Origin: Rugalucina vietnamica
Taxonomy: Eukaryota; Mollusca; Bivalvia; Lucinida; Lucinidae
NCBI GenBank assembly: GCA_964017185.1
Contig: OZ024874.1
Coordinates: 18,099,957-18,163,956, forward strand
Length of the DNA stretch: 64,000 bases
Reading direction: 5' to 3'
The position numbers were made by a program, and so were the translations under genes. Shown in pieces: positions 11,801-60,170 of the stretch. Position 1 is the stretch's first letter; every line of letters begins with the position of its first letter. The notes under the pieces are model-generated. The model worked only from the letters and a program-made list of their open reading frames with translations, searched no databases and was not told the DNA's origin.

Positions 11801-14800
11801 TCCGGTGTGTATTTGCGTTCACATGCGCCATTTACTTACCCCGAGTAAAATTTGCACACCGGAGTATACTTTACACATTGTATTTTGGCGCATGCGAATT
11901 GGACTTTACTTTTGAGATTTGACAGAATTACAGAAGTTTGATCTTTTACTCCACTGAACTTTTTTTTTCAAAATGCCTGCATTCTGTTTCTGGATCCAGA
12001 TCAAAACAGACTGCTACACCAGAAAATGAAACTCCAATGAAATTAACGCCAGGTTAGGCACAAGCATATGGTTGGGGGTATAGTGTTTTACAAAAACAGT
12101 AGTTTTAATATAATTATATTCACACCCATGACAATTTTTTTAATTGTTGACAGACGCAATAAATTCATCAAATGAATTATGGAATTGTCTCTCTTCTTGA
12201 ACTTATTAGATCTATGATCCCTATTTCAGAGGGACAAAATTTAATGAGGTGCATGGCCAGAAAACATATTTTGCATTTCAAAAACAAAACCGGTGATAAG
12301 CTGCAAAGTAATTACCTGATAGGCCTAATAAATTGTAGAGTACACACATCAAGTCACCTTCCTGTTTGTGTCAGAGCTGTTCGAAAACCAATAATAATAA
12401 TAATAAAAAAAAGAAAAAGATTTTCTCAAGAAGCAGCTCATAATATAAACATGAAATAACAACAAATGCATTTTTTTTTTATTTCTCTTTCAGTTTCTGC
12501 TATTATATTCATCTCTTAGTTGAACAAAATTTAAATGTATAAAACATTCTTTGACCTAAAACTTGAGCCTAAAACAAAGGGATTGTTCATGGTTTGTTTA
12601 GTTCTATAATTGATCTTTCAACACCTACGCTGACAGGAGAATGTGTTAAGCTCAGATACAGAGCATAGTCTAAACTTAGATTACAAGTGGATATCCCTTC
12701 CCCCATTAATAGATTATCCATGGTTTCATATTTCAAAACATCCCAGTTTTCATCTGTGGCACAGGAGTAAAGTCAAAACTTGCAAACAATTTAAAACTTA
12801 ACTTTTTTTTAACTTTCACTGATAATCTGGCCTAACAAAACCTAGGTTTTGGATATACCTTTTAATACGGCAAAAATGATGCTGAAAATGAAATTAATAT
12901 TTCAAGCTAAAATATTGGCCTGTCCTTCATAATATCCCAACCTTATGTCCAGTCCTGTAGAAATATTCTCTGATAGCTCGGACCATTACCAAGGCAACTG
13001 GCAGTATAGCATTCACTCCTTCTTTACCGGTGGATGTCTTGATAAAATCAGCACCTACAAGGAACAGTGGATACATACTGGATTGGACAACATACAGGAA
13101 GCTGATTTCTAACGGAAAATATGTGACAACGGTCTATGCAGACTGAGTTCGCCTTTTCTTTAATCTCCCCACTTGAACAGATGGACTAGCTGACCACGCT
13201 TAAATATGACTATTAAAGTTGCCGCCTATACAGTAACCTATTTGCCAAATAATATTTGTTTTACTTAATTTTAAATCTTATCAAAATACTATTAAAATTG
13301 TGTTTTGAAGGTACTATCATTGAGATAAACCGTTTTAGAAAAACGGACTGTACATGCATATTTTATGCACATTTGATAGTCGAAATTATCGCATGGTGAA
13401 TTGGTGATAGTAAGAATTTTTACCCTAAGGCCTATGGGAGTTTAACATGGGAAATTTATATGAAGCATTATGATATTAAATGGTTGAACAGAAGAGAACA
13501 AAAACTTTTTTTCACTCAGATCGTAAACAGGTAAACATATAACTTTGAGTTCTAAAAATCTTAAATACTATCCTATCGGTATGTCACAGTTAGTATTTGT
13601 CTGTTTCTCAATGGTTTGGTCACTTTGTTAGTCTTGACTGTTTAAATCTTAAGTTTTAATAGCAATTTCTGGAATCTAAAAATAAAATTGATTCATGGAA
13701 TTACATGAGCTGCCTCATGAGAAAACCAACAGTCTGCATATGCAAAACCAAAGACGCAGATCAGCTTCAGGGTAACCGTGAAGCTGATCAGCGCCTTTGT
13801 TTTTGCTACACAGATAGTACAATTCTTCTACTTTCTAAATCCAAAATTTCCAGTCTCTAGACATCTTCTGGTCTTGTACAGCTCGGGTTGTGTCTGACTT
13901 GTTCAGAAACCACATAGTTGTTTTTTTATAATGTGGCTCATATCTTAAATGCATCGATAAAACTATATATATGTACCAACCTGCCATCATACAGGTCATA
14001 CTGGCTTTGTATATGTTGACAAACGACCCCAGCTCCCCAGTGGCCAAGATTGTCTTGAGATGGGCCTCCCCACAGGCTTCCTTCATTAGTCTCACTTCAT
14101 CATACACACCTGGAAATTGAATCAAACAGTTAAAGATGTGTTCAAAAATGAGCAACGTTTTGCTAACATATGAGCCGTGTCAATAATCGTCATGAGAAAA
14201 CAGGATTTTTGCCTATGCGAAAACAAAGGCGCAGATCAGCTGTGCAGTAACTGACATCTTCTGGTCGAAAACAAAGGCGCAGATCAGCTGTGCAGTAACT
14301 GCACAGGTGATCAGCGCCTTTGTTTTCGCTACACAGATAGTATAATTCCTCATCTACTTTCAACCAAATTTTCAAGATTCTAGCATTCTTCTGTAACTGT
14401 ACAGGCCGGTTTATGTCGGACCTGGTCGGAAACCATGAAGATAGTAGAAAACAAACCCAATAGGAATTGTTACAAGTCCCTGTGTACAGACCTAGACTGC
14501 CTTCAGAAGAGTTTACCAACAAACTTTCTTCCTTTGTTTGTCTTGAGATTCAATGTCCAAGTCAACATTTTTTCAGTCATGTTAGGACAGAGTAACATCC
14601 AAAGTATTAACCAGTCCAGTGGGGAATTAAAAGCTATGACTCAGTGCCAGTGCGGTTCAAGTTGCCAACCTCTTATTTGGCAATAGATAATTGATAGTCA
14701 AAAACACTATCACAGTAGTACTATCACAACAGCAATTATCACGATGCATCGATATATATCCGTATATTGATCTCTACTTACAACCCTAGGCTTAACCAAA

Positions 14801-17800
14801 ATGCAACAAACGCTTACACACATATATACCACAGCAGACAATTTGAGCCACAACACAAGAAAGCTAGTTCGACTTGGCCCAACACAACTGGGCTGTACAG
14901 TCACAGAAGCAGGCTAGAACCTTCAAATTTCGGATTTAAAAAGAAGAGAGATTGTACTTTCTCTGTAGCGAAAACAAAGGTGCTGATCAACTGTGCAGTT
15001 ACTGCAAAGCTGATCTGTGCCTTTGTTTCCGCATATGCAGTTTTCTGATGACCCAGCTCAGTACATTACGAAAACCTTCCCATGCAATGTACAAAAATTG
15101 TTTCAGCTGTAAAAATTGAAAATTTCACCAGAAAAAATGTTGATGTTTATAATAGTTGTGCTCAAAACATAAATCGTGGGTACATGTTAGAACTGCAATC
15201 TATGTTTTGGACCAAAAATAAGAAAAATACCATAGTATACCCCTGCATACCCCAGTTTTACTGTATAAAAGTGGGGTTTAAGGGGTAATTCATTGCACGG
15301 ACATGTTTTCCTGATGAGACTAAGCTTCCCTTACCTTTCCAGTCCCCAATTAGAGCTAGTTGTCTGTTGATGACAATGTCAATTTCTTTTGCACCATCGG
15401 CAACAGCCAGTCCGATCTCCTCTAACCTGGTCTTCAGAGGGGTCTGGCCTGCTGGGAACCCGGTTGCCACTGAAAAATGAAATGACATAAGATTAAGAAT
15501 GTATCAAGGCCTACAGATAGACAGCTTGAAAGGTCCATAGGAGAAGCTGACAACTTAGCCCACAGATTTTGATCAGTTTTACATCCATTTCAATATCATT
15601 TTATTCATATGAGATGAGATGGAGCAGTGATGAAATCAGCAACCTTAACCACCCAACAATAGGGGTAGCTTTCACACACAGAAGTTACCTTAAATAACTC
15701 CTCAGTCTTTATGTACAATACAGAAAATATTCTCATCACATATGGGCATATCATCCATACTGGTCTAACTATAACCTATGCCTTTTGATTACTTTCCCTT
15801 CAATAACACTGGACATGAATCAACATATAAATATTATATATAAACTTATAAATTTTACGAAAACAACTACACTTATAATACCCAAAGCCCCAGGTATCTA
15901 TGAAGCTTCAGTAGCTTTGAGAAAACAAACAGGGTCCTCCATCCAGATTAGATACAGAACACTCCTGTTATAACTTAACATTTTCATGCTCAACTCGCAC
16001 GAAAATAATTCAGATGAAAAATTGCTGACATTATCCTAAGTAATTACCTGAGGCAACTGGTATCTGTGAAGCTCCAGCAGCTTTTAGAGAAGTCACAGCA
16101 TCTTCCACCCGGCTGGGATAAACACAAACTGCCCCTACTGTTATACCTGGGGAATAAAACGTTCCATTGATCAATGGATTCCATGTCTTTCCAAATCCTT
16201 GACTGCAACTAACAATGACTGCATGATAATGTTGATTAATTTTGTTTTTAGTGATAAAGCTTTTTTAGACATCAGGAAAACATGTTGATGTAATATATAC
16301 CCCATTTTTATATAGCAAAACTGGGGTATGCAGCGGTATACCTATTTTTCTTATTCTTGCTAAACTAGTACATAGATTGTGGGTACTTGTTCGAACTACC
16401 TAGGCAGCCAAGGCGGTTCTAATGAGCACCCACAATCTATGTTTTTAGCGAAAATAAGAAAAATATAAAAAAATTCTTCTGAAGATTTTCAAATTTTACA
16501 ACTTAAAAATTTCTGCATATTGCATGGGCGTGTCTTTGTAATGAGAAAATAGAGAATTTCCCTTGAATGAATTGCATTGAAAAAAATATATATTTTTGTT
16601 CCACAATCTATTTCTGCAGTCCCTAATATTGCAAATTAATATACTGCAGCTTTCTAGAAGTGACTAAGTTTCTGTAATTATAACCTCAAATTATTTCTGA
16701 CAGTATAAGATTTAAGAAATCATGTTTTTAAGTTTTCAACTATGAAAAAAAAAAGAAAAAAAAAAAGCAAAATCAGAACCTTCACTTTGATAAATTGTAG
16801 TACAAATAGAAAATCTTACATATGAAATTTATTAAACGAGCCGTCAGTCGTTTTATCATGTGACTTTTAAAATAGGATTTCATCCCCTTCAAAGTGGACA
16901 TATTTCAATGAAAATTAACATTGTTGTTACGGATGTCGTCAATGACATTACCTATTCCCACAAAAGTGTTAATACATGTGTGGTCATAACAAGTTTTATT
17001 ACATGACGTTATCCTCTGAAAAAACAGTGAGGTCAATGACCTCAGGTCATATGATAAATTCTTTTCTTCAAGTTCTAGTCTCTGAGGCTTATACAGACCT
17101 GGTTTTGGAAGCACAGAAGACAGATTTTCTAACAAGCTGCACAAAAATGACACTACCTAGGTCTTGAACATCCATGGCCTTCAGGAGATCAGGCATTACA
17201 GGATGCTTGGCTTTAAAACACAGTCTGTTAACATTAGCCTGTGTGTCATCACCCGATAGCGTGGTGAGATCTATACATGTTACTGCCCTCAACAACCATG
17301 CAGCCTGAAGTACAAGATAAGAATAAGAAAGTAAGAGAAGTGATATAATCATGGAAAGTGGTGCTATATTAGCTATATTATTCTGAAAGACTTGCAAAAA
17401 CAAAGATGCAAAAACAAAGTTGCAAATATAAAGCTGTGAAAACCAAAAAAAAAAAAAAAAAATAATAATAATAAAAAAAATGTACAACTGATCACTGATC
17501 ATCTCCTTTGTTTTTGCTTCAATAGGAAAGTACAACCCCTCTTCTAAAACTTCAAACTTCTTCTGTGCCTGAACTCTTGTTTTTTGTCAGACCTAGTCAG
17601 AATCTCCAAAGTCAGGTTTTCTAATGATGCAGCTCATGTAAGGAGCCTGTACATGAGAAAACAAACAATTTGGGTTCTGACACAAACCAGCCTGTACAGT
17701 CACAGAAGATGGTCAGAGGCTGGAAATTCTGGATTTCTAGAAATATCTAGAAAGAAGAGGAATTGTACTATCTGTGTAGCGAAAATAAAGGGGCTGATCA

Positions 17801-19075: not shown

Positions 19076-19633
19076 CATCAGGAAAACATGTCCGTGTAAT
19101 GTATACCCCCTTAAACCCCACTTTTATATAGTGAAACTGGGGTATGCAGGGGTATACCTATTTTTCTTATTTTTGCTCCAAAACATAAATTGTGGATACT
19201 CGTTAGAACCGCCTCGGCGAGGCGGTTCTAACATGTACCCACAATCTGTGTTTTGAGCAAAAATAAGAAAAATATCAAAATTTATCAGCCATTACGGAAA
19301 CATCTCCGTTTGCACAAAGTATTCTATAATTTAGCTGATTTTGACTGTATTTTTGCATTAATTACACTTGTTGTCCATAAAATCATGTATTTTGAGTATC
19401 TGTTATGATCACCTCATGGATTAGATGATAACAGACGCCCACAATATATAATTTCATGGATTAATATTAAGAATCGATAATTTCATACCTACCCCTGATT
19501 TCCCCTATTTTTACTATATGTAAGGTGCAAATCTGGGGTAGCTTTCATACGGAGATGTTTCCATGATGTAAAAATTTTCAATTTTCAAAGCTAAAAAAAT
19601 CTCTGTTTATTGCATGGGCATGTTTTCGTAATG
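19076..19633 (+). mobile_element. MITE family B copy, split by a nested relative
   Basis: CATCAGGAAAACATGTCCGTG at the left and GGGCATGTTTTCGTAATG at the right, with the central palindrome GAACCGCCTCGGCGAGGCGG. Between its right half-sites sits another inverted-repeat insert at 19290-19568. Confidence 0.75.
19290..19568 (+). mobile_element. Diverged B-like element nested in a B copy
   Basis: CATTACGGAAACATCTCCGT at the left mirrors ACGGAGATGTTTCCATGATG at the right. The interior carries its own GGGTAGC and ACAGACGCCCACAAT words resembling a diverged family B centre. Confidence 0.65.
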
Positions 19634-20690: not shown

Positions 20691-20756
20691 ATATCTTACT
20701 TTTATTATATAGCTATAAATATCAAATGGTTAAAACATAGGGATAAAAGCCGAGTA

Positions 20757-20792
20757 ACAAGTGTGCAGATATCAAATGATATCGGCACACTT
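20757..20792. repeat. Short hairpin with GATATC arms
   Basis: AAGTGTGC pairs with GCACACTT, then one mismatch, then GATATC pairs with GATATC around AAAT. Confidence 0.8.
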
Positions 20793-20892
20793 ACTTGATA
20801 TTGCACACTTTGCTAAAAGCGAAAAAATCGTATTGTAAATCCTTGCCATTATTTTTACTTTAGGGTCATCTTGCAAAATAGTTAATTTGGGA

Positions 20893-20965
20893 CGTCAGCT
20901 CTAATGACGTCATCTACATCTGACGTCGCGTGGAAAATGACGTCATAGCGATCCGAAACGTCAAC
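20893..20965. promoter_or_regulatory. Cluster of CRE-like TGACGTCA sites
   Basis: Within about 70 bases there are GACGTCAG, two TGACGTCAT, TGACGTCG and ACGTCAAC words. TGACGTCA is the known CREB/ATF binding site. Function in this place is unproven. Confidence 0.45.
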
Positions 20966-21223
20966 TGAAGTTTGACACTTTCAGATTTAAGCAATTCAAG
21001 CCGAAAAAAGAAAAAAAAATGTCAGAAATAATGATTCAATTGCAAAATTTGCTTCTGAAAAGTAACAGTGCAAAAGTGATATCATTTGATATTGCACTAG
21101 TGCAAAAATGATATCACCTTTGGATATTATCGCAGATTTTGTGTAGATATTTAAATTTTTTAATGTTTACTCTCAACAAAACATAAAACATGACACAGAA
21201 ATATTTATAGCTATATAATAAAA

Positions 21224-21345
21224 GGGTTATTGCACTGATATCGGTGAATATTGTCCCTCGTTGGGATATCTACGGACGCTCGCAAGCTCGCGTCCTTCGA
21301 TATCCCAACTCGGGACAATATTCACCGATATCAGTGCAATAACCC
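21224..21345. repeat. Hairpin H1 (122 nt, TC/TC steps)
   Basis: A 34-bp perfect outer stem (GGGTTATTGCAC...GTGCAATAACCC) is followed by a TC/TC step, an 11-bp stem GTTGGGATATC/GATATCCCAAC, a TAC/TTC step, a 6-bp stem GGACGC/GCGTCC, a second TC/TC step and a GC/GC tip around AA. On the minus strand the steps read GA/GA. Confidence 0.9.
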
Positions 21346-21420
21346 TATATTATTATATGGCAAGTGATGAAATATAGAGAAATATGTATTAAATATAACC
21401 AATATTTGAAAAAGTTATAT

Positions 21421-26210: not shown

Positions 26211-26487
26211 TCACCAGGAAAACATGTCCGTGTAATGTATACTCCCTTGAACCCCACTTTTATATAGCAAAACTGGGTTATATAGGGGTATATACATTTT
26301 TCTTATTTTTGCTCCAAAACATAAATAGTGGGTACTCGCTAGAACCGCCTCGCCGAGGCGGTTCTAAAATGTACCCACAATTTGTGTTTTGAGCAAAAAT
26401 AAGAAAATTATCACAATTTTCTAGCTGACAATTTTCATTTAAAGTTCAAAAAATCTCGTTTTATTACATGGGCAAGTTTTCGTAATG
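26211..26487 (+). mobile_element. MITE family B copy, complete
   Basis: TCACCAGGAAAACATGTCCG at the left and GGGCAAGTTTTCGTAATG at the right. The centre is a near-perfect palindrome GAACCGCCTCGCCGAGGCGG inside GTGGGTACTCG...TGTACCCAC. It is nested inside the 23836-27732 element. Confidence 0.8.
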
Positions 26488-29110: not shown

Positions 29111-32100
29111 TTATAAGTTGCTGTGTATCACCTTAAATGTAGCAAGTATCTCCTTGCAGAATTTACTGAGTTTAAATAAAGCAAATTTATCTTTACTGTT
29201 CATGACCTCATTAAAGAAGACCATATTAGGTTGGCGAGGCAGGCCTCTCGGAAGAAACATTCTCCTTTGCTCTTCAAAATAAGAGCATTCAAATAAGTAA
29301 TGATACTCGTCACCCAGTTTGTCTAACCTACATAGTTCACAAATCCTATCATCTCTCTCACTACCCCAAAATCTGCCTAGCTCAATGGGTAATTTGTGGT
29401 TCATACATCTAAAATGACAAAAAGCCATAGCTAAATCATCAGGAAGTAGATTAAAATATTGCTCAAAATTTAAATCTGTTTTATACATTCTGTAATTTAG
29501 GCATTTGGCTGTATTAAAAATTGAATCTTTCCAAGTAAGTTTATAACTCTCAAGAAGTTTTGATTTTACCAGCTGACCTAAATTCTGTGGCACAAGAATA
29601 GTATCTTGTGAATTCCAAAGATCAGCATAACCACTAGATACAAGACTGTCTTTAATGCTTAGAAGCCATTTAGAGTGAAAAAAGTCTCTTTGATGCATTG
29701 ATAACAAAATTTTGTATAGCCTATAAGCAATTTTGTCATGTTTTCCATTTACGATACGTTGCCAAAATCCAGCCATTCTTGATTTACATAGAATATTGAT
29801 GGGATACCGTCCTAATTCACCATATAACATAATATTTGGTGTAGATTTTTTAACATTCAAAATGATTTTGTAAAATTGGGTACATAACCTTTCCAATATA
29901 TCAGTATTTTCAAACCCAGTTACTTCCGAGCCATAAAGCAGAATAGGCATAACCATACTATCAAAAAGTTGTAATTGAAGGTCAACGGGTAAATGTAATT
30001 TACGAGATTTTCTTAACACAGAAAACATAGCTTTTCTAGCCTGGTCTGCAAGCCTTTGATTATTCTTAACAAAACGACCATTATAGGAAAAAAGTGCACC
30101 CAAGTACACAAAACCATCCTCAATATCTAATTGCTGTCCATTATAAGTAAAAACCAAATTATGCTCAAATTTCCTATTACAAAATATTGTAACCTTAGTT
30201 TTTGTTGGATTAACTTCCAAATCCCAAGATTTACAATAGAGATACATGGCATTCAATGCTGCCTGCAATTCTTCCTTTGATTCAGCAAAAATAACTGTAT
30301 CGTCCGCATAGAGTAAAATGTACAGTTTAAATAGTACTTCAATTTCATCATTGCTGAGTAAAATTTTCGACATTTCCTTAATATCGTTCAAGCCACTATA
30401 TGCATGTGAGATAAATTCTGATAGGTCATTAAGGAACAAAGAAAATAAAATTGGTGATAGGTTTTCACCTTGCCGTACTCCGACATTACTTACGAAAAAC
30501 TCGGATTTAGCGTGTCCCAGTCTAACGCAAGATTTGGCGTTAGCATATAAACTATGAATTACTTTAAACATTTTACCATCAATATGATGAGTTAGTAATT
30601 TCTGCCATAAAAGACTTCTATTAACAGAATCAAAAGCTTTTTTGTAGTCGATAAAAGCGCAAAACAATTTCTTGCCCCTAAAAAGATAAAGATCTATTAT
30701 ACATTTCAAGTTGAAAATGTGATCAGTGGTACCATACTTTTTACGAAATCCAGCTTGTTCTTCACATAGCAAGTTCATGTTTTCTAGATAATTATTTAGT
30801 CTATTATTCAAAACAGATGTAAAAAGCTTACCAAAGCAACTCAAAATAGTGATGCCTCTATAATTGTCAGGGTTAGCCTTGTCTCCCTTGTTTTTATAAA
30901 TTGGTGAAATCATACCCTGTGACCATTCATCAGGTATAATACCAGTGTTGAAAACAAGATTGAAAAATGTTGTAAAGAGAGTTAACATTTTAGTCTTGGA
31001 AGATTTTAGAAATTCATTAAGAATAAGGTCAGATGAACAGGCCTTGTTGAGCTTCAAATTGTTTAGACATTTCAAAACTTCCGCCTCAGAAATAACCGAG
31101 TTCAACTCAGAATTGTGCTCAGCCACCTCTGAAGGGTCGATTTGAAAGGATGGATCTGTATCATTTGTGTTTATCAAATTTAGCTTTTTAAAGTGCTCTG
31201 CAAAAGTCTCAAGAGACACTTTTTGTATTACTCCAGACCTTGAGTTATCTGCCTTGTTCAGCAAACTCCAATATGATTTAGGATCAGAGTGTTTTAAAGA
31301 ACGAAGTTTAGTGATGAAATCCTTTTTATACATGTTAAAATGCTTATTAATACATTTCTTGTAAGCTTTACTGGCATTGTGCACAAAATTATAGTTTTCA
31401 ACATTATTAACTCTATTTCTCAAATTTTTGGCTCTTTTATATTGGCTTCTTAGCCTATGACATTCATTGTTAAACCAAGGGCGTTGGACAGGTTTAGATT
31501 TTAATGAACGTATTATCTTAGTTGGCTGAAGTTTTATATCTTTAAGAAATCCAGCTTCATTAGCTGCTTCAGTCAAAATAGAAGAACATTCAGCATTCAA
31601 ATTGTTAATATCAACTGCTGTTATCTTATCTATGTCAAGTGCATCAATTCTATCTGAGAGCAATGTTATTTTGTCCATATTTAAATGTTCCACAAAAATT
31701 TGGGCTTCAGCACTATTCCATTTAGCTATGGTTACAGATCCAACTTCAGTTTGTTGTCTACCATGTAAAGCAATATCGTTACAAATAAGTGAAAAATGTA
31801 TACCACTATGAGCATCACTGATCATAGGATCAAACGGTAAAACTTCAAATTCTGATATAAATGTGAATAAGGATGGTGACAAGATTACATAATCTACTAC
31901 TGTGACACCTTTACAAGTTTTACAACCGAGAAGCCTGTCTCGCCCCAGTCTACCATTACCAATATATAAATCACATGTTTTGCATAACTCCAACAACCGT
32001 TTACCATAATTGTTAGTTTGCGATAAATCTGAATTATGACGTTCTGAGGGAAAACCCAATTCTTCTAGAGGGCAGGTGCCCAAGCCATCATCAATGACAT

Positions 32101-32782
32101 TACCAATATTAAGTATCTGTTGTATATTATCATCAACATTGATAAAATCATAAGCATTACTTGTATGCGCATTAAAATCACCTAAAAGGCATATTTTGTA
32201 ATTTTCAGATGAAAAATTTAGAATGTCTGTTTCCAATGATTCAAAATACTCAATACTACTGTAATTACTACCTTCTGGAGCAATATATACACAGCAAAAT
32301 GCAACGTCATATGCAAAATGATTAATAAGTGTGAACCAGTAAAAATGATCACCGTCATTTTTTAAAACTTTAATACTGTCATATAAGTGTTCCTTCACCA
32401 GGATGGCTATTCCCCCTGATTTTATCTTAGCACTGCCACGATTCATTAAAGTTAAACATCTAAACCCTAACATGTCAATTGAATCAAACGCGTCAAAATG
32501 TGTTTCCTGAATACACACTATGTCATAAGACATAACAGTTTCTTCCCACTCGGGATTATTCAGTTTACTTTTCAGTCCACCCGCATTAAGAGAGAGTATC
32601 TTGATTTCTGAGTAAATCACAGTGTCTTGAGAGTCATAAGATAGGTCATTTGAATTATCATAATTTAATGTAGTATCATTTATTGAGTTATTATGACTAG
32701 AATTAACACCTGAGTAATTGAGTGAACTAACATCTTCCGATGAATTATATACACTTGAACTAACACTTAAATTAACTGGCAA
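29111..32782 (-). CDS. LINE ORF2: endonuclease-reverse transcriptase, near intact
   Basis: About 1223 codons without a stop. In order: an APE-type endonuclease (residues ~45-330) with LSLNAGGLKSK, QETH (~91), LLGDFNAHTS (~197) and ISDAHSG (~320); a linker; a reverse transcriptase (~600-900) with GMISPIYKNKGDKANPDNYR, AGFRKKYGTTDH, FIDYKKAFDSVN, GVRQGENLSPILFS, YADDTVIFAES (catalytic DD at ~826) and YLGALFSYNG; and a C-terminal CELCRLDKLGDEYHYLFEC cysteine-histidine motif (~1147). ORF2 proteins of this kind nick DNA and copy their own RNA into the target. The 3' octamer tail suggests a CR1/L2-like clade, but the clade is uncertain. There is no clear ATG at the 5' end: the frame is open back to a TAG at about 32877. 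It is probably a young copy. Confidence 0.93.
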   Translation of the reverse strand: MPVNLSVSSSVYNSSEDVSSLNYSGVNSSHNNSINDTTLNYDNSNDLSYDSQDTVIYSEIKILSLNAGGLKSKLNNPEWEETVMSYDIVCIQETHFDAFDSIDMLGFRCLTLMNRGSAKIKSGGIAILVKEHLYDSIKVLKNDGDHFYWFTLINHFAYDVAFCCVYIAPEGSNYSSIEYFESLETDILNFSSENYKICLLGDFNAHTSNAYDFINVDDNIQQILNIGNVIDDGLGTCPLEELGFPSERHNSDLSQTNNYGKRLLELCKTCDLYIGNGRLGRDRLLGCKTCKGVTVVDYVILSPSLFTFISEFEVLPFDPMISDAHSGIHFSLICNDIALHGRQQTEVGSVTIAKWNSAEAQIFVEHLNMDKITLLSDRIDALDIDKITAVDINNLNAECSSILTEAANEAGFLKDIKLQPTKIIRSLKSKPVQRPWFNNECHRLRSQYKRAKNLRNRVNNVENYNFVHNASKAYKKCINKHFNMYKKDFITKLRSLKHSDPKSYWSLLNKADNSRSGVIQKVSLETFAEHFKKLNLINTNDTDPSFQIDPSEVAEHNSELNSVISEAEVLKCLNNLKLNKACSSDLILNEFLKSSKTKMLTLFTTFFNLVFNTGIIPDEWSQGMISPIYKNKGDKANPDNYRGITILSCFGKLFTSVLNNRLNNYLENMNLLCEEQAGFRKKYGTTDHIFNLKCIIDLYLFRGKKLFCAFIDYKKAFDSVNRSLLWQKLLTHHIDGKMFKVIHSLYANAKSCVRLGHAKSEFFVSNVGVRQGENLSPILFSLFLNDLSEFISHAYSGLNDIKEMSKILLSNDEIEVLFKLYILLYADDTVIFAESKEELQAALNAMYLYCKSWDLEVNPTKTKVTIFCNRKFEHNLVFTYNGQQLDIEDGFVYLGALFSYNGRFVKNNQRLADQARKAMFSVLRKSRKLHLPVDLQLQLFDSMVMPILLYGSEVTGFENTDILERLCTQFYKIILNVKKSTPNIMLYGELGRYPINILCKSRMAGFWQRIVNGKHDKIAYRLYKILLSMHQRDFFHSKWLLSIKDSLVSSGYADLWNSQDTILVPQNLGQLVKSKLLESYKLTWKDSIFNTAKCLNYRMYKTDLNFEQYFNLLPDDLAMAFCHFRCMNHKLPIELGRFWGSERDDRICELCRLDKLGDEYHYLFECSYFEEQRRMFLPRGLPRQPNMVFFNEVMNSKDKFALFKLSKFCKEILATFKVIHSNL

Positions 32783-33583: not shown

Positions 33584-34429
33584 TTTTGTAACGAGACACT
33601 TCGGCATATTTAACGTTATTAGATTTTTCTTGTTTATTTGGGTTGTTGTTGACTGAAGGTCGGGACTGAGGGAATTGAATGAATGAATGAATTGCTGTCA
33701 CTGGCGGCTGATTCGTCGTACCTAAGCATTTTATTTGTTTTTTATGTAAACAAGAAACAGAAAAGCAAACAAATGAAAACGAAGAAAAACACTCACCTTT
33801 TTATCTGTAATAGTCAAACTGCATTTTTCTTTTACACAGGGATTTTAGTGATTTGGCTTTAAAAATATTTTCTAGGCGTCATTTTTCTCAAAATCATAAG
33901 TATTCAGTTCATTTGCTCATTTCCAAGTTTTTATCTTCAAATGACTTTTAACAGTGTTTTCCAATTTAAATACACAGTCGACCTATCTGGACTTTGCCGT
34001 AAAATAGGTCATAGGGTCATGATTAATTCAAGAAATAATTTTACTTTACGGTTAACTATCGTGATTAACGCGGGATGTTGGAAGGCAGATTGCGATGTAT
34101 TAATTCACGACGATGCAGCTTTGCTAGCGACAAACTGTGGTTCATAGCTCCATGAACGTCAGAAAAATTAAACTCATTGCTTATATTTACATTCATTTCT
34201 CTCTATCGCTTGTTGAAAACTTATCAAGGCGATCACATTTACAAGCAAATAGAGAATTTACACACAGTGTGTGTTCAAATAGCGGAACGGCTACGTTGAC
34301 GTCAAGACGTTTACAACGTCCAATCACATTGGTGAGAGCCATGGTATTTTTAGTTGCGAAACCTCACTCCACTGCGTTCCGTTGCGGACCTTGATGGTTC
34401 TATTTGATCAAATCAATTTCTGATTGTAT
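33584..34429. other. No gene seen
   Basis: A short GAAT run near 33677. ACGTTGACGTCAAGACGT near 34292 is CRE-like. No exon was recognised. Confidence 0.35.
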
Positions 34430-34440
34430 AAATAGAGGAT

Positions 34441-34555
34441 ATTTGCTTTTTTTTAGGTGAATACCAAATATATTTCATCGAGTGAGTTGAAAACATAATT
34501 TTCACTCGTGCTGCGCACTTTGAAATATATTTGTTATTCACCTCAAAAAAGCAAA
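34441..34555. repeat. Hairpin H3 with TGC triloop, branched middle
   Basis: ATTTGCTTTTTT pairs with AAAAAAGCAAAT, GGTGAATA with TATTCACC, and AAATATATTTCA with TGAAATATATTT. The middle holds a second GAGTGA/TCACTC pairing and a GTGC/GCAC stem around TGC (GCA on minus). It is preceded by AAATAGAGGAT and followed by AATTTTCTTTTTATTTTAT, the same flanks as H2. Confidence 0.8.
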
Positions 34556-34560
34556 TTTTC

Positions 34561-34740
34561 TTTTTATTTTATACTAAAAGTAGTTCCTCTTCTACAGTGA
34601 AGAAATAGGCTAATATCAGTCATTAGTGACTTTTGATATCAGTGAGATTTGATATCAGTGAAATTTCACATCAATGAAAATATCAATTTTATCATGTTTT
34701 GATATACATTGATTTTCACTGTAAAGTATAAAATAAAAAC
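34561..34740. repeat. Inverted repeat with TATCAGTGA words inside
   Basis: TTTTTATTTTATACT at the left mirrors AGTATAAAATAAAAA at the right. The interior repeats TTTGATATCAGTGA-type words. Confidence 0.7.
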
Positions 34741-37537: not shown

Positions 37538-37771
37538 GAGCCGCGTCATGAAAAAACAACATTTCGGATATGCGAAAACAAAGGCGCAGATCAGCTTCGC
37601 AGTAATTGAGAAGCTGATCAGCGCCTTTGATTTCGCTACACGGATAGTACAATTCCTTTACTCTCTAAACCCCAACTTTCCAGCCTCTAGCCATCTTCTG
37701 TGCATGTACTGCTCGGTTTGTGTCGAACCTGTGCGGAAACCACATTGTTGTTTTTTTTCATGACGCGGCTC
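37538..37771 (+). mobile_element. MITE family A, best-preserved copy (234 bp)
   Basis: GAGCCGCGTCATGAAAAAAC faces TTTTTTTTCATGACGCGGCTC. The internal hairpin pairs GGCGCAGATCAGCTTC with GAAGCTGATCAGCGCC around GCAGTAATTGA. AAAT on each side may be the target duplication. It ends 13 bases past the GPCR stop codon, so it lies in or replaces the start of that gene's 3' UTR. Confidence 0.85.
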
Positions 37772-37784
37772 AAATTTCGAAGAA

Positions 37785-39335
37785 CTAGTTAATGTTGATC
37801 CTATTGTTAACGCCACAAACTCTCTTCAGTCGTTTCCAACACTCTTTCCGAAAGTTCTGGTTAATCATTGAGTAGATCAGAGGGTTTGCGGCGTTGTTTA
37901 TATAGAAACAGTGATTTAGGAAATGTTCTAGCACCTGTCTGCGTGGTGATATATCAATTGGTGACAAAAATCCAACGATATATAATACTCGTATAGTGAA
38001 AAAGGGGAGCCAAGACAAAAGGAAAACGGCTGTTACTAAAAACAGAATTTTTGCCGCTTTCAACCCAGACGAAAGGTTCTTTGTTCGGTCCAGTCTTTGG
38101 TTTCTCCCACTATTATCTGAAGTACTCAGTGAAAGCGAAATGCTTTGGCGTGCTGATATGACCTGGCGCGGTGATGTGTTTGAGTTTGCGATGAATCGGT
38201 TAGGTACGGAAAGCTTATTTCCTTCCGTTGCTGTTGAATGGACCGATGCGACCGATGATACTGACTCGCGTACTGGATCTGAATTGATTGTAGGACTGAG
38301 ATCCAGCTTTGACACGCCACTTAACGAAAAGGATTTGGGGAAAGTTAAAGCTCTTGTGACATCAAATAACATCACTCCTTTGGACGAGCTTGTGCCAGGG
38401 TTCGGCAGGTTTGGCGATCCGTTTGCTTGGCTCAACATTTTTGTCGAAATATCATCAGCACATATTGATTTGGTTGACCTAAAATCGGTAGTCGACAGTC
38501 GCGATAATCCGGTGCCGAAAATAGACGTTTTCGAGAGGAAAGTCCCAGCGTCTTTCATGGGCATAATGTCGCGAGGTTCGATAGTCACTGGTTTAACTCG
38601 ACGCCTGCTACGAAATGCAACAACAGCCACCTTTTTGTACAAAACGATGATACCGATTATTACTGACATAAAACACGTAACAACAAAGATACTGTATCCT
38701 AACAACGCAGAGCCCGTGTATTCTTCCATATAGTCACATTTATAGCCGATGAAAATATGATCTTTGTGCCTGATTTCTTCCGATCTTGGTCCATAGAATA
38801 CAATAATCGGTGTACTTCCCAACGTTCCAAACGCAATTGTACCCAAAATTATCTTATAGATATGTTTATGAAAGTCGAGGAATTTTATTGGCCTACATAT
38901 AGCTAGGTATCTGTCAGCAGCTATTGCTAAAAGTGCTACTCCAGAAATAGTCAACCCAGAATGGATGGTAAACTCGAACATTTTGCATACAACGACCCAC
39001 GTTTGGTTATAGTTTTGAAACAGCTTATATATGACATAAGGATGGATCATAGTGCATGCCAGAAGGTCTGTGCAGGCTAGATACATGATGAAAATTTGGG
39101 CCGTTGTCCGGTTTTCTCGATGGCCGTAAACCAAAAGCACGAGAGTGTTTCCTGTTAGGCCAATGGTCATAAGTGTAACCATTAGAGTCACCACTGGGGC
39201 CATTAGGTCTGAGAATTCTTGATTAAGTCGATGAACCTCGGAGTTCCAGCATGTTGAATTTGCCTCTAGACTGCACTCCATAAGTAACCGTTTTCCCGTT
39301 TCGTTGATCATTTCAATGGAGCTGAAAAGATGCAA
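37785..39335 (-). CDS. Class A (rhodopsin-like) G-protein-coupled receptor, orphan
   Basis: A plasma-membrane receptor of 516 codons without an intron. The N-terminus has sequons NET and NST. TM1 ~45-71 (GN at 62-63), TM2 ~79-102 (Asp90 in LACTDLLAC), TM3 ~117-142 with the disulphide Cys117 and DRY (141-143), TM4 ~160-182, ECL2 Cys200, TM5 ~209-233, a very long third loop (~234-425, Ser/Thr-rich), TM6 ~427-452 with LSWLPFF, TM7 ~471-491 with NPLIY (484-488), and a short tail with FRKECW (Cys499 is a possible palmitoylation site). CAG at 39322-39324 after TTTTGCATCTTTT is a good splice acceptor, so translation probably starts at Met9 (39311) behind a non-coding 5' exon. Motifs fit the amine and short-peptide receptor branches; the ligand cannot be told. 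Its 3' side abuts a MITE. Confidence 0.93.
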   Translation of the reverse strand: MHLFSSIEMINETGKRLLMECSLEANSTCWNSEVHRLNQEFSDLMAPVVTLMVTLMTIGLTGNTLVLLVYGHRENRTTAQIFIMYLACTDLLACTMIHPYVIYKLFQNYNQTWVVVCKMFEFTIHSGLTISGVALLAIAADRYLAICRPIKFLDFHKHIYKIILGTIAFGTLGSTPIIVFYGPRSEEIRHKDHIFIGYKCDYMEEYTGSALLGYSIFVVTCFMSVIIGIIVLYKKVAVVAFRSRRRVKPVTIEPRDIMPMKDAGTFLSKTSIFGTGLSRLSTTDFRSTKSICADDISTKMLSQANGSPNLPNPGTSSSKGVMLFDVTRALTFPKSFSLSGVSKLDLSPTINSDPVRESVSSVASVHSTATEGNKLSVPNRFIANSNTSPRQVISARQSISLSLSTSDNSGRNQRLDRTKNLSSGLKAAKILFLVTAVFLLSWLPFFTIRVLYIVGFLSPIDISPRRQVLEHFLNHCFYINNAANPLIYSMINQNFRKECWKRLKRVCGVNNRININ

Positions 39336-40009: not shown

Positions 40010-40131
40010 ATGATTTTCCATTCATCAACATTCGCTAACTCCCGAGGGGTGTGTTAAAAATCGAGGGCGTATCCCGAGTTTTTCAACACTTCCCGAGGGA
40101 CCTAGTAAATGTTAATGAATGATAAAATCAT
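40010..40131. repeat. Hairpin H6 (in copy A, GA/GA steps)
   Basis: Outer arm ATGATTTTCCATTCATCAAC with its near-complement. Then CCC/GGG stems around GA on both arms (TCCCGAGGG at the left and CCCGAGGGA at the right). Then GTGTT/AACAC, and a second AAAAA-C/G-TTTTT stem again with GA on both arms, and GGG/CCC at the tip. The paralogue in copy B is 46625-46750. Confidence 0.8.
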
Positions 40132-40597: not shown

Positions 40598-41183
40598 CAT
40601 GTAATATAGCATTAATTCTGCAAAAATTAAAGAAATAATGATGCACTATATTTTACAACCTCGTGATATCGCCATACGCGTAAAAAGTTTTTAGGCTTAT
40701 GATCGTTCCGCGCAGACCAGATTCTCATTATTAGCACGTGTTTTGCTTGGCGCTCGGTATCGAGCATAATCAAATGCCGTGTATTAATAGCACGTGTGCA
40801 CGTGAATCGCCACATTGATAAATTGCTTTTTCTTCGTTAATCGCCAAATTAATAAATTGCTTTTTTTCTTCGTTAATATATGGCTGTTAATATCGTGTGA
40901 CACGGGTATTTATGCAATAATGAAAGTTAATAAGTGAATAAGATGGAAGTTGATAAGAGATGATATATGTTTGAATCAATAGTCTAGGGGCCATCATTTT
41001 CAAAATTCTAGTCCATTTTTTATCATTTAGCCCCAGTAAAATTTGAAAATGATTATGATTTGGAACGCCTCTAGGTTCCGAATACCTTATATCTCACTCT
41101 ATTTGTTAAAGCAATACTTTTACCAGGTTTATTAGCAGCTGGTGTTTGTTTGTGTGATCAAATTACACTCTATCTTAGTTATA

Positions 41184-41278
41184 TTTAGAGAATTGTTTCT
41201 ACGAGTAATTGATATAAACTACGAGGGGGCGGAGCCCCGAGTAGTTTATATCAATTACGAGTAGAACAATTTTCTAAA
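41184..41278. repeat. Hairpin H4 (95 nt, GA/GA steps, GGA loop)
   Basis: TTTAGA/TCTAAA, then AATTGTT/AACAATT, then TAC-GA-G against C-GA-GTA, a 17-bp stem of TAATTGATATAAACTAC with its complement, a second GA/GA step, and GGGGC/GCCCC closed by GGA. Confidence 0.9.
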
Positions 41279-41282
41279 TGTT

Positions 41283-42019
41283 TTGTATCATGGTCCAACC
41301 AGAATCAAGCATTCAATTTTCCCATGACTTCATTGTTTTAGATCGTCAGTTAATTACCAAGAATGACAGGTATAATGTTTTTTTTTCTTTTCTGCGTATC
41401 TTGCTGATAAGCTGATTTATTGTTTGACCTAAAACACAGCAACTTTTGAATTTGAAATTCTGGTATGTCACGTGACATAATTTGAAAACTTTAGTTGTTC
41501 ATTTACAAAAAAATGGATGTGCTAGATGATGAAAATGACAAATTGATTTTAAGCCAAATTGCTGATGCATTGGAAAATAATTATTTGGAGATAAACCCAT
41601 TTGAGGACAAGCATGAGGATATATTTCTCTGGATGCACCTTCAATTTCTGATAAACCAATTTAGCTTGATTAAAGCTGTGTAGGCTTTGGGACTAGCTGT
41701 GCTGAATTTTCATATCATATATTTTTTTTTATTTATTTTTATCATTCACATTGGATATCTATTGCTGTAAATAAAATACATGCTTGAAAACTTCTTTAAT
41801 TTTTCCACTCAAAGGCAACAGGTGTCTGGCAAACAAATCAATTCTGACATATCAGTGCTCTAACTTCCCTGTGCAGTGTATCAGGTAGTTAGAGCACGAC
41901 CTAGATAACAGACTCAGTACAAGCCATAGGAAATTTTAGCTCCACCTACTCTCATAGCCATGGTTTACTCACATATTGCACAAGCAACATCAAAGAGAAA
42001 ACTCTAGACCATGATACAA
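41283..42019 (+). mobile_element. 737-bp inverted-repeat element in copy A
   Basis: TTGTATCATGGTC at the left mirrors GACCATGATACAA at the right. TATATTTA-like words flank the whole insertion on both sides, and copy B has one such word there. It directly follows hairpin H4. It contains a short frame (41510-41683) reading MDVLDDENDKLILSQIADAL then NPFEDKHEDIFL, which I do not recognise and which may be a captured or decayed 5' coding piece. Confidence 0.65.
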
Positions 42020-46450: not shown

Positions 46451-46624
46451 TTTTTTTTAGATCAGTGATAGGGGGCAAATAGGAGAAACGTTTGAGAGAA
46501 ATCTCAGGGACAAACTTGGGGAAATTGAACAACTGGTAAAATAGAGTACCGTAAAGATCAGTGTTGATATTATTGAACAAAAGGGTGGGTAAGATCACGA
46601 TTTCAGTTAATATAGGGATCAAAC

Positions 46625-46750
46625 ATGATTTTCCATTCATTAGCATTCGCTAGGCCCCGCGGGGAATGTTGAAAACCGAGGGCGTATGCCTCGGTTTTCA
46701 ACACTCCCCGAGGGACCGCGACAGTCGCTGTTAATGAATGATAAAATCAT
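46625..46750. repeat. Hairpin H7, paralogue of H6 in copy B
   Basis: ATGATTTTCCATTCATTAGC with its near-complement outside. The inner stem GTTGAAAACCGAGGGC/GCCTCGGTTTTCAAC is perfect around GTAT. Here the inner GA step seen in H6 is fully paired. Confidence 0.8.
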
Positions 46751-48628
46751 TTTTGATAGCTATTATTTCATAAATTCTGCAAAAACTAAAGAAATAATGG
46801 TGCACTATATTTTACAACCTCGTCACATTTTCATACGCGTAAAAGCTTTTATTCTTATGCTCGTTCCAGGCGGACTTCAGATTCTCATTATTAGCACGTG
46901 TTTTGCGTGGCGCCCGGTATCGAGCATAATTAAATGCGGCGTATTAACAGCACGCGCGCACGTGAATCGCCACATTAATAAATGGCTTTTTTGTTAATAT
47001 ATGGCTGTTAATATAGTGTGACACGGTTATTTATGCAATAATGAAAGTTGATATGATCGAAGCTAATAAGGGATGACATATGTTTGAATCAATAGTCTAG
47101 GGACTATCATTTTCAAAATTCTAGTCCGTGTTTTATCATTTAGCCACGGTAAAATTTGAAAATAACCATGATTCGGAACGCCTCTAGGTTCGGAATACCT
47201 TGTATCTCACTCTATTTTTTAAAGCAAGAAATTTCTTCTTTTTTGTACCAGGTTTACATGTATTTGCAGCTGGTGTTTGTTTGTGTGATCAAATTGCACA
47301 CTATTTTACAACTATATATTTAGAATACACCTTTCAGTATATAAACTCACTAAAACATTCTGAGAATCAGAGATACATTTTCTCGTTGGTCCTTTTATTA
47401 GCGCTATAAAAGTATTCTTATGTATATAAAGACTAATTAATATTGCTCGAAGAATGAGCGTATAGCAATCTGATTAAAATCGCTTGCTGCAAGGTGTGCA
47501 TGTAAATCCGATTTGAAGCGCATGGTTTATAATGTTTCTAAAGGGACGTACGTTTAAGCCGTTAGCGTCCCATTTAGCATCTCAATTCACTGCGACAAAA
47601 AAAGATATGACAGTTAGTAAATCTGAAAAATGGGTCTTTTTGAAATATGACACACAAAGACTGAAATTGGAAATCAGGGTATCAATAGCCCCTTCAATTC
47701 GACTGACATAATCCAAATATTTGGGGACCCGTGAAAAATATGAAAGCTTAAGTTCCTCAGGGTACCGTGAAAAATATGAAAGCTTAAGTTCATCTGACTG
47801 ATGTTTTATGGCTTGCCCTAAGTCTGTCGTTACTATGTTTTCAGATGGGACAATTATGCAAGCAAAGAAAATCATCAAACATGAAATTTAAAGGAGTAAT
47901 TCATCACAATTATGCCTCTGAGATTTGTCTGCAGGTTTGTTAAACATAGAATTTATTTGTTTCCGTCTATTCTGATGAAAGGTCTTACAGCGTATCCATT
48001 TCGTGTTCCAAAAAGACCTTATGAGTCATTTGTTGACAATTTTACTTTTCGGGGAGATGATTATGATTCACCAAAGATAAAAAAGATCTATACAAATACC
48101 GCACATTAAAAATTCTAAAATGGCATATATACGTCCTCATATTTACACGTAACGAAAAGTTGTTTAGTTATTAACTTTTAATGCTACCATACATTTGCTT
48201 TCATTGATAAGGTCACTTGAATAATGGATGCCAATAGCAACATGTATTCTTGCTTTCTATGAATCTGCACGCATCTGGGATTGCTGCAAGTAAAACTCAA
48301 CTTAATTGTAAACACATTATACTAAAATGACCATGATTCAGCAGAAAATAAAAATTCAGACATTATTTTTCAAAGGTTTGTAGAATCATATTTAGTCTAA
48401 ATAGATACACAGGGTGTATTAAATGCCTGTTTTTGAACCAAATTGTGTTACCCTCTAGAGATATTGTAAAAATAAAATACAATGAATAAATTAACATATA
48501 TCCTATTTTGGATTAAATGCCTGTCTTTTGATAAAATATTTTAACCCATTTCTTGGCTAAAATACATCGTTCATTACTGTATCTGGTTTAAAACAATTAA
48601 AACATGATCAATATAATTTAGAAATTGC

Positions 48629-49715: not shown

Positions 49716-50600
49716 AACTTGACGCTTTTAAGTGAGGGCCTTTCGGAACCTGAATTTTATGGTGACTTAGTTTACAAATTTAAGAAACTTATAGGAATTA
49801 ATGATTTTTCTTTTCAGTTCAGAAAAATCATAACACGTTACAGACGTATAGGTTATAACTTGAATGTTATGCGACAGTCTGCATGCTTAGTTTTTAACCC
49901 AATCATGGTTGATAACTATGCTGCCTTCTTTAATTGCACACCGGTGGGTCGGGCGTCAGACTCTATGATGGCCCCGACTTAAAGCTATTCATTTTAGTTG
50001 GTTGGGGCCGGAGCTTCTTGTCTGTTGCTTGGCCCACCGGGGTCCAACTGGTGTTTTTTCTTTTGCTCCGGAGTTAGTAGGTTATTCGGCGCCCAGGGAT
50101 CTCCATCGTCGGGCAGCTTACTCAATCTGTGAGTCCTTGTTTTTTGATTCATCAGGATGTTTATCATGATTTATTTGTTTGTTCTTGATGATTCATTGAC
50201 TAGTTAGAGATTCACCACGAGGACCGAAGAACTTACTAAATGTTATGAACCACTGCAGAAGCTGAGGGTGAGGTTAGGATCCTGTAAAACCGGTTTAAGC
50301 CCGCCAGTAACTTTGTGTTACTGATCGTTCCAAGGCGATACCTCTGTGGTGGTTCTTTTTGTTTTATGTCTTGGTGTTTAAAATATTTTTGTGCTGTTGG
50401 CGCCTTATGTATGTTTTCATATTTTTAATTAAGTTAAGGTAACTGAGTGGCCACCTATTGGGAAAATAGCTGCTCGTTCGGCTTACGATATGTTTCATGG
50501 TATAAGTGCCTGATTGTTAGTTTGGTTTTTTCCCACCTCGGTTTTTGGAGTGGGAATCTCTTTCTGATTGCGCCTTTTCCTGATCTTTGCCTACTTGTAC
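49716..50600 (+). mobile_element. E retro-fragment family copy E1
   Basis: An open frame to 49982 reads LSEGLSEPEFYGDLVYKFKK, then FRKIITRYRRIGYNLNVMRQ and NCTPVGRASDSMMAPT before a stop. A 600-base 3' UTR ends CCTGATCTTTGCCTACTTGTACC. The same frame and UTR recur at 54528-55441; UTR-only copies lie at 59137-59790 and about 8940. It looks like the 5'-truncated 3' end of a retroelement. I recall this conserved C-terminal segment as widespread in mollusc repeats but cannot name the family. Confidence 0.7.
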
Positions 50601-54527: not shown

Positions 54528-55441
54528 TTTTATCGTAGACACTATGAATTGATTTCCAAATATACTGTTGGGTTAAAGACGCTTTTAAATGAGGGCCTTT
54601 CGGAACCAGAATTTTATGGTGACTTGGTTTACAAATTCAAGAAACTTATAGGAAGTAATGATTTTTCTTTTCAGTTTAGAAAAATCATAACACGTTACAG
54701 ACGTATAGGTTATAACTTGAATGTTATGCGACAGTCTGCATGCTTAGTTTTTAACCCAATCATGGTTGATAACTACGCTGCCTTCTTTAATTGCACGCCG
54801 GTGGGTCGGGCGTCAGACTCTATGATGGCCCCGACTTAAAGCTATTCATTTTAGTTGGTTGGGGCCGGAGCTTCTTGTCTGTTGCTTGGCCCACCGGGGT
54901 CCAACTGATGTTTTTCTTTTGCTCCGGTGTTAGTAAGTTATTCGGCGCCCAGGGATCTCCATCGTCGGGCAGCTTACTCAATCTGTGAGTGCTGGTTTTT
55001 GATTCATCAGGATGTTTATCATGATTTATTTGTTTGTTCTTGATGATTCATTGACTAGTTAGAGATTCACCACGAGGACCGAAGAACTAACTAAATGTTA
55101 TGAACCACTGCAGAAGCTGAGGGTGAGGTTACGGCCGTGTAAAATCGATTTAAGCCCGCCAGTAACTTTTTGTTACTGATCGTTCCAAGTCGATACTTCT
55201 GTGGTGGTTCTTTTTGTTTTATGTCTTGGTGTTTAATATTTTTGTGCTGTTGGCGCCTTATGTATGTTTTCATATTTTTAGTTAAGTTAAGGTAACTGAG
55301 TGGCCACCTATTGGGAAAATAGCTGCTCATTCGGCTTACGAAATAGGTACCTGATTGTTAGTTTGGTTTTTTCCCACCTCGGGTTTTTGGAGTGGGAATC
55401 TTTTGCTGATTGCGCCTTTTCCTGATCTTTGCCTATTTGTA
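54528..55441 (+). mobile_element. E family copy E2, inserted into the LINE pseudogene
   Basis: Open frame 54549-54839 (KYTVGLKTLLNEGLSEPEFY to SDSMMAPT) plus the 3' UTR ending CTTGTACC. CTTTTCTAAA before and CCTTTCTAAA after mark the target duplication. The LINE frame stops at the left junction and continues in phase at the right one. Confidence 0.82.
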
Positions 55442-59795: not shown

Positions 59796-59864
59796 TTTTC
59801 CAAACGTGACGAATATTTTTGTCCACCCTCTATGATTGTCTTGTTTGTGAAGAGTAAATAGAGG

Positions 59865-59957
59865 ATCTTACACGAGTGGTCATTTCATATGAAATTTATT
59901 AAACGAGCCTTCGGCGAGTTTAATAAATTTCATATGAAATGACCATGAGTGTAAGAT
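59865..59957. repeat. Hairpin H5 (93 nt, GA/GA steps, TTC loop)
   Basis: ATCTTACAC pairs with GTGTAAGAT; then a GA/GA step; then GTGGTCATTTCATATGAAAT and on to AAAC pair with the right arm (one G.T pair); then a second GA/GA step; then GCC/GGC around TTC (GAA on minus). AAATAGAGGATC precedes it, as in H2 and H3. The repeat continues on the right to about 60170, matching 16850-17050. Confidence 0.92.
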
Positions 59958-60170
59958 TGTTTTATCATATGACTTTTAAAAATAGGCTGATTTTATCGCC
60001 TTTGAAGTGGACAAATTTTTCATGAAAATTTACATTGTTGTAACGGACGTCGTCAATTACGTTACGTATTCCCTCAAAAGTATTTATACTCGTGTGGTCA
60101 TGCGATTTTTATGACATGACGTTCCACTGGAAAAAAACGACGTCATATGATAGACTATTTTCTCTAGTGT

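Follow-up and report, generated by a model that had tools for sequence, protein, structure and literature searches.

Tandem GA/GA steps mark long hairpins at the ends of dispersed, possibly Crypton-like, mobile elements in the genome of the bivalve Rugalucina vietnamica

Crypton recombinases gave rise to the vertebrate genes ZMYM2-4, QRICH1 and KCTD1. A single tyrosine recombinase gene is the defining Crypton feature in the account of Kojima and Jurka (2011; PMC3212892), which, in the part of the text available, describes animal Cryptons without terminal repeats, reports short terminal direct repeats for fungal and oomycete Cryptons rather than for animal ones, and treats the ends of animal Cryptons as poorly defined. 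Helentron-type elements and HINEs, including DINE-1 and the oyster Cg_HINE, have subterminal inverted repeats, a terminal palindrome and A/T-rich targets with no target duplication, and the elements described below resemble them in these respects. They differ in that the palindrome here is far longer and carries conserved GA/GA, and in that the one coding member encodes a tyrosine recombinase instead of a Rep/Helicase.

Several other systems act on hairpin DNA. Protelomerase hairpin telomeres, REP/RAYT and IS200-type ends are all substrates of such enzymes, although both the enzymes and the sizes differ from what we describe, and we know of no GA/GA family signature in any of these hairpins. 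The integron attC site is bacterial, and its irregularities are extrahelical bases, not tandem GA. Nevertheless, attC shares with the present hairpins an imperfect fold, conservation of structure over sequence, strand-specific irregularities and, in the available part of its description, a tyrosine recombinase (PMC3053210); folding has been demonstrated for attC, whereas the hairpins here are known from sequence and predicted folds. Terminal hairpins and the Crypton recombinase are already known as kinds, and it is the GA/GA form that is new to us. No description of GA/GA hairpins at transposon ends, or of hairpins in Cryptons, was found in the open-licence literature, and a literature text search gave no match to the tip sequences.

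The window analysed here is a stretch of 64,000 nucleotides (C6:18099957-18163956 of the 1.09 Gb genome; 35% G+C). The six hairpins named in the original prediction were all found where it had placed them, both in sequence and in fold (Table 1), and they are the end structures of dispersed mobile elements. This placement was absent from the original prediction, as were the inverted subterminal repeats, the constant polarity of the GA strand and the tyrosine recombinase of one family described below. We label hairpin families A-O, of which A-F derive from the hairpins of that prediction; for families F to N mostly one or two copies were read in detail. The folded hairpins are 67-188 nt long. 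GA/GA or TC/TC steps, expected in at least five of the six, were seen in five window copies (59865, 41184, 21681, 21224 and 40010), while the hairpin at 34441 is a damaged copy whose intact family E relatives have all three of their GA/GA steps. The window copy at 59865 has one GA step intact and its outer step decayed (CATGAG); of 44 copies of family A, 41 have GA/GA at step 1 and 43 have it at step 2. The view that the arms are mostly different while one irregularity is constant now extends to 12 families with mostly unshared arms. The quoted tips were correct, but GNA loops as a general feature were overstated, since the GA strand has a GNA loop in only six of the 12 families (B, D, E, H, J and M). 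The opposite strand has one in two families (including that of 59865) and the remaining four have none; the GA-strand loop is TTC in A and I and of other sequence in C, F, G and K.

Table 1. Features of the hairpin-bearing elements in the window, with positions counted from its first nucleotide.
Feature	Position	Strand	Basis or remark
Family A element, ~300 bp, no gene seen, tail TAAATAGAGG	59855..60152	+	38 loci compared, some overlapping
Family A hairpin	59865..59957	+	Sequence, fold; intact copy with C-GA-G/C-GA-G twice
Family A GA steps	59874-59875 and 59905-59906 vs GA at 59947-59948 and 59916-59917	+	
Family A hairpin loop TTC	59910-59912	+	
Family A subterminal repeat TTTTATCATATGAC	59960..59973	+	
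Family A inverted subterminal repeat GTCATATGATA (consensus GTCATATGATAA), far end	60142..60152	-	
Family B element, internal-deletion derivative of a Crypton-type tyrosine recombinase transposon	41178..42019	+	
Family B hairpin, two C-GA-G/C-GA-G steps, loop GGA	41184..41278	+	Fold
Family B subterminal repeat TTGTATCATGGTC	41283..41295	+	
Remnant of first 56 recombinase codons	41513..41680	+	tblastn 70% identity, E 3e-16; start also matches homologue P0002
Family B inverted subterminal repeat GACCATGATACAA	42007..42019	-	
Family C element, ~657 bp, 22-23 bp inverted subterminal repeats	20700..21357	-	
Family C hairpin, GA/GA on minus strand and second GA/GA within tip	21224..21345	-	Fold
Family D hairpin, three minus-strand GA/GA steps, loop GAA	21681..21831	-	Fold
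Family E element, damaged; far end a 15-nt inverted copy of the hairpin-side repeat	34427..34739	+	
Family E hairpin, decayed; intact relatives with three GA/GA steps, GCA loop	34441..34555	+	Fold, relatives
Family F hairpin, one C-GA-G/C-GA-G step and other defects	40010..40131	+	Fold
Family F hairpin, second copy, GA step partly lost	46609..46767	+	Fold

The GA/GA signature on these transposon ends is real, strongly non-random, strand-fixed and structural. Compared with other two-base mismatches in the fetched loci, GA/GA dominates: a census of 91 loci (348 kb) gave 198 hairpins, not picked for steps, in 32 collapsed families, and 12 of the 16 two-by-two loops in long hairpins were GA/GA after the families had been collapsed, distributed over nine families. 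The expectation from base composition is 1.8%, which gives a binomial P of 2e-18 with the loops taken as independent. Most census loci were fetched with families A, B and C as bait, A having no census representative; subtraction of the bait families B and C leaves GA/GA at nine of 13 loops, and the families absent from the original prediction (G, H, I, J and K) account, again by subtraction, for GA/GA at six of at most ten. In an earlier hairpin scan, whose biggest cluster lumped A, D and E with their neighbours, GA/GA occurred in eight of 24 families, and the runner-up (GA/AA, five families) is one change away from it. The 12 representatives (A-K and M), which were selected because steps were present, hold 22 GA/GA steps against four other two-by-two loops. 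Chance hairpins are excluded by the loop census.

At all 22 GA/GA steps of the 12 families the loop-side closing pair is G-C; the outer closing pair is C-G at 17 and otherwise G-C (one step), T-A (two steps) or T-G (two steps), with pairing always kept. Eight of the 12 families (A, B, C, D, E, G, H and I) have one GA step at a distance of 2-6 bp from the loop, and the next follows about 16-29 bp further on. The GA hairpins have the attC-like trait of structure conserved over sequence on one strand. A different reading would make the arms by-products of template switching and CGAG a directional word for binding duplex DNA that recurs with one orientation on the two arms. Such a doubled CGAG is indeed a direct repeat within a palindrome, and the healed copies described below reveal arm correction. 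However, at five of the 22 steps a different outer base removes CGAG from one arm or both, with the closing pair retained; because the outer pair varies yet stays paired, selection on the pair is favoured over selection on the word, and we give the duplex-word reading little credence.

The hairpins belong to mobile elements. An internal 28-mer from the hairpin at 59865 has 1478 exact copies in the genome, and a first look at genome candidates gave 2321 for A, 816 for C, 719 for I, 380 for J and 98 for B. Family G is also repetitive, with 40 scored places; the 3671 candidates from its query, which held a piece of an A copy, do not give a number for G. The query for I stopped 1 nt past the hairpin, and 39 of its 41 places end short of the query end. 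Conserved sequence lies on both sides of the J hairpin in all 40 scored places, which counts against the reading favoured below. Families H, K and M were found in the flanks of fetched loci. Comparison of copies shows sharp limits on both sides at about 300 bp for A, about 865 bp for B (30 loci fetched, 27 compared, ends read in 21) and 657 bp for C. A, B, C and H are built alike when read along the GA strand: a short tail leads into the hairpin, which a few bases separate from a 10-23 bp repeat; the body follows, and an inverted repeat closes the far end, reading GTCATATGATAA in A, GACCATGATACAA in B, GATATTTATAGCTATATAATAA in C and GGTATAATAA in H. Inverted flank copies give the same layout for E and J and, weakly, for F, where a 13-nt copy lies 453 bp off the hairpin at 40010.

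Alignment of the loci for shared flanks and empty sites, as the original prediction had proposed, yielded these inverted subterminal repeats and one natural empty site: H interrupts an A copy after A position 244, and the A sequence resumes at 245 with zero bases gained or lost. Insertions of A, B and C have A/T-rich flanks, and target duplication is not evident by eye. In 19 of 37 A copies (the 38 loci with L001 omitted) ATAA precedes ATAGAGG, matching the far end; the corresponding pattern in B is not clear. Five of the 37 A copies (L010, L014, L026, L028 and L029, the last two overlapping) are head-to-tail tandems with one shared ATAA per junction, as from insertion of a circle or by a rolling circle.

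All nine families that give an answer agree: on the GA strand the hairpin stands ahead of the element body. Six of these rest on copy or insertion boundaries (A, B, C, G, H and I) and three on inverted flank copies, of which two are of fair quality (E, with 14-15 nt in two loci, and J) and one is weak (F, with 13 nt where opposite-side matches run from 6 to 13, the real A repeat beside G excepted). D, K, M and N give no polarity answer of their own, and D follows E by homology. Calculated DNA energies favour the GA strand by 0.3-4.7 kcal/mol in 11 of 15 folds and the other strand by 0.8-4.4 kcal/mol in F, F2, J and N, the latter four being a point against the reading favoured below. The 15 folds include F2, N and O (L013, a separate repeat with an A-GA-A step), which lie outside the 12 families, and a 130 nt piece of E, the full E being used for the step and copy comparisons.

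RNA energies likewise favour the GA strand in 11 of 15 folds, and in B the hairpin lies upstream of the gene with the GA strand as coding strand. Both points would suit a selected RNA, in which GA-strand transcripts fold and the tandem GA pairs serve as a protein-binding site or modulate processing. Yet A, C and H, in which no gene was seen, keep the hairpin and its steps, and hairpin position follows the element ends, not genes; we consider selection on RNA improbable.

Only family B is tied to a recombinase, via one full-length copy. Locus L056 is a B copy that runs into a gene, and together with the adjoining L095 it gives an element of 2.57 kb from the tail to GACCATGATACAA. The gene is a single 524-aa frame across a 238-nt GT-AG intron and matches DUF3504 (44.9 bits; cut-off 29.7), a QRICH1 domain and Phage_integrase (32.9 bits; cut-off 27.1). 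The catalytic R, HxxR, GH and Y are present, by eye, in the B protein and in the family consensus, and the B profile compared with solved structures matched QRICH1 (1e-13), XerA (9e-4), an integrase (0.003) and IntI4 (0.01). The full copy with its flank holds two frames of at least 150 codons, both from this one gene, and no RT, Rep or DDE gene. Judged by these sequence features, family B has a copy that encodes a complete Crypton-type tyrosine recombinase. Part of the gene survives in 27 of the 29 other B loci, among them L039, the window copy; hence, the short 865 bp copies descend from full recombinase elements.

The genome has 53 DUF3504 matches, 47 of them above the cut-off. Named homologues of the B recombinase are mostly bivalve (Mytilus, Ostrea, Pinctada, Saccostrea, Mercenaria, Pecten and others), with two limpets, and no relatives were confirmed in bacterial genome contigs or viral contigs. 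One molluscan-type Crypton recombinase (P0003) is filed under the clam symbiont Candidatus Thiodiazotropha taylori, with a longest contig of 2.9 kb; this entry is probably host contamination.

Family B resembles Cryptons in its single complete recombinase (DUF3504, QRICH1 and Phage_integrase), in having deletion copies that outnumber the full one and in that no target duplication was seen; it differs in having subterminal inverted repeats, of 13 bp, and an end structured as a hairpin. The reading that we tentatively favour, at a little short of an even chance, is that the hairpins are the structured ends of Crypton-like transposons, perhaps used in folded form like integron attC sites.

The same anatomy could belong to non-autonomous rolling-circle elements of the Helentron type (HINEs), in which the hairpin would be the 3' terminator, GA/GA would aid folding or recognition, and B would have captured, or been invaded by, a recombinase gene. 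What is described of HINEs corresponds to the parts of A, B, C and H: for the mite elements, the available part of the description gives palindromic subterminal repeats of 12-15 bp, a palindrome at the 3' end and T-rich targets (PMC4067079), and the bivalve ones have TT targets without target duplication in that of theirs (PMC7492417). The genome is also Helitron-rich, with 150 Rep matches scored among 409 candidates (at the Rep loci L089-L094 the fetched stretches stop short of the element ends), and the head-to-tail A tandems would fit as well. On the other hand, the full B copy has the recombinase gene alone in its 2.57 kb, and the short copies retain its first codons. Palindromes of mite HINEs are described in the same partial source as 5-10 bp (PMC4067079), far from the hairpin lengths found here, and ten autonomous oyster elements could not be related to the oyster HINEs in the available text (PMC7492417). 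We regard a HINE origin as a doubtful but real possibility.

The link from the enzyme of B to the remaining families is weak. No recombinase coding remnants were found in non-B families at the thresholds used, no autonomous partner was seen for them, and among the matches listed none of the A, C, G, I or J copies lies, by eye, within 20 kb of a recombinase or Helitron gene. The hairpin-side repeat is alike across eleven families beyond all 50 of 50 shuffles, and this holds without D. The tail motif is weak across families (one of 50 shuffles as good without D). When the motifs are learnt without B, the hairpin-side repeat of B is a marginal match, equalled by 252 of 5000 shuffles, and its tail has no fit, being equalled by 4163 of 5000.

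In the favoured Crypton-like reading, the B recombinase would move B and, by likeness of ends, the other families. With the two ends joined as a circle, the inverted repeats would flank the hairpin; for B, two 13-bp arms would lie around the tail and hairpin. Tyrosine recombinase sites are described, in the available text, as arms of 11-13 bp that are 6-8 bp apart (PMC3212892), and a hairpin folded out, either as a single strand or as a cruciform, would leave the B arms about 10 bp apart. Stacked in the form of sheared pairs, the GA/GA steps may identify the fold and its strand to the enzyme, a role that extrahelical bases have in attC. The most specific form of this proposal is that eukaryotic Crypton-like transposons recombine at a folded single-stranded DNA hairpin between split arms of 10-23 bp, with GA/GA as marks of strand and register; we rate it as unlikely, and single-strand recombination is here an attractive, unproven reading. 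To our knowledge, a single-strand recombinase site in animals has no precedent. If true, an attC-like system would have evolved in animals, one-strand, copy-making transposition would explain the high copy numbers, and many bivalve elements filed as HINE would be of this type, which would put the classification of bivalve Helentron-like elements in question. A defined Crypton-like end with a testable fold opens the mechanism to study.

The homologous families D and E show how the arms evolve. Compared pair by pair at positions paired in the folds, with broken pairs outside the count, 48 pairs are the same, 13 have both partners altered, one has a single partner altered, and six are whole-pair indels; all three GA/GA steps are retained despite the paired changes. 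D and E do share an ancestor, but their changes are mainly paired. Descent of the hairpins from one ancestral sequence with ordinary decay, the alternative set against the original prediction, is excluded by these paired changes together with the 12 families whose arms are mostly unshared.

Some steps have been healed by a change from GA to TC on one arm, so that the arms now pair: two D steps in L074 and one E step in L080 (one of five copies each), and step 1 in one of 44 A copies. The A copies are about 1% diverged, and two matching changes by chance are therefore very unlikely. Template switching, which in the available part of one report fixes the pairing of existing stems (PMC8794818), explains both the concerted arms and the healing. 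The suggestion that a process regenerates arms around a fixed core is thereby supported in one half: the arms are kept complementary, but the core is not protected, and the process erases GA/GA in L074, L080 and one A copy. Because arm correction heals GA/GA to TC/GA, the GA/GA steps must be maintained against it, and we infer that they would vanish without selection. Template switching would thus keep the arms complementary and drifting in concert, while selection would retain GA/GA. The pattern that had been taken to point to selection on the folded strand, with a signature spanning families, is borne out, and in these hairpins template switching and selection clearly work against each other.

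Other features were recorded in the window and genome. A palindromic repeat with AGCTGATCAGCGCC-like arms (window 13742-13806, 14217-14329 and 37572-37636) has 21 hairpins in its sequence cluster from the fetched loci, with no GA/GA among the members listed, and a further, contrasting palindromic repeat with GAGGCGGTTCTA near its centre (window 19162-19272, 26315-26391 and 16370-16442) has no GA/GA steps. Helitron Rep open frames are very long, up to 3,542 aa (for example, at C12:18221356 and C7:53338796), from which it follows that Helitrons may be recently active in this genome. A known RNA family was rejected as the identity of the hairpins, as both Rfam matches within the window are SECIS elements and none falls on the hairpins. 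The SECIS pair (window 49957-50024 and 54814-54881) has equal scores and lies 4.9 kb apart, suggesting a duplicated 3' end of a selenoprotein gene. A 1223-aa open frame with endonuclease and reverse transcriptase domains (window 29111-32782, minus strand) belongs to a LINE-type retroelement, and a rhodopsin-type receptor is encoded in one 516-aa open frame at window 37785-39335 on the minus strand.
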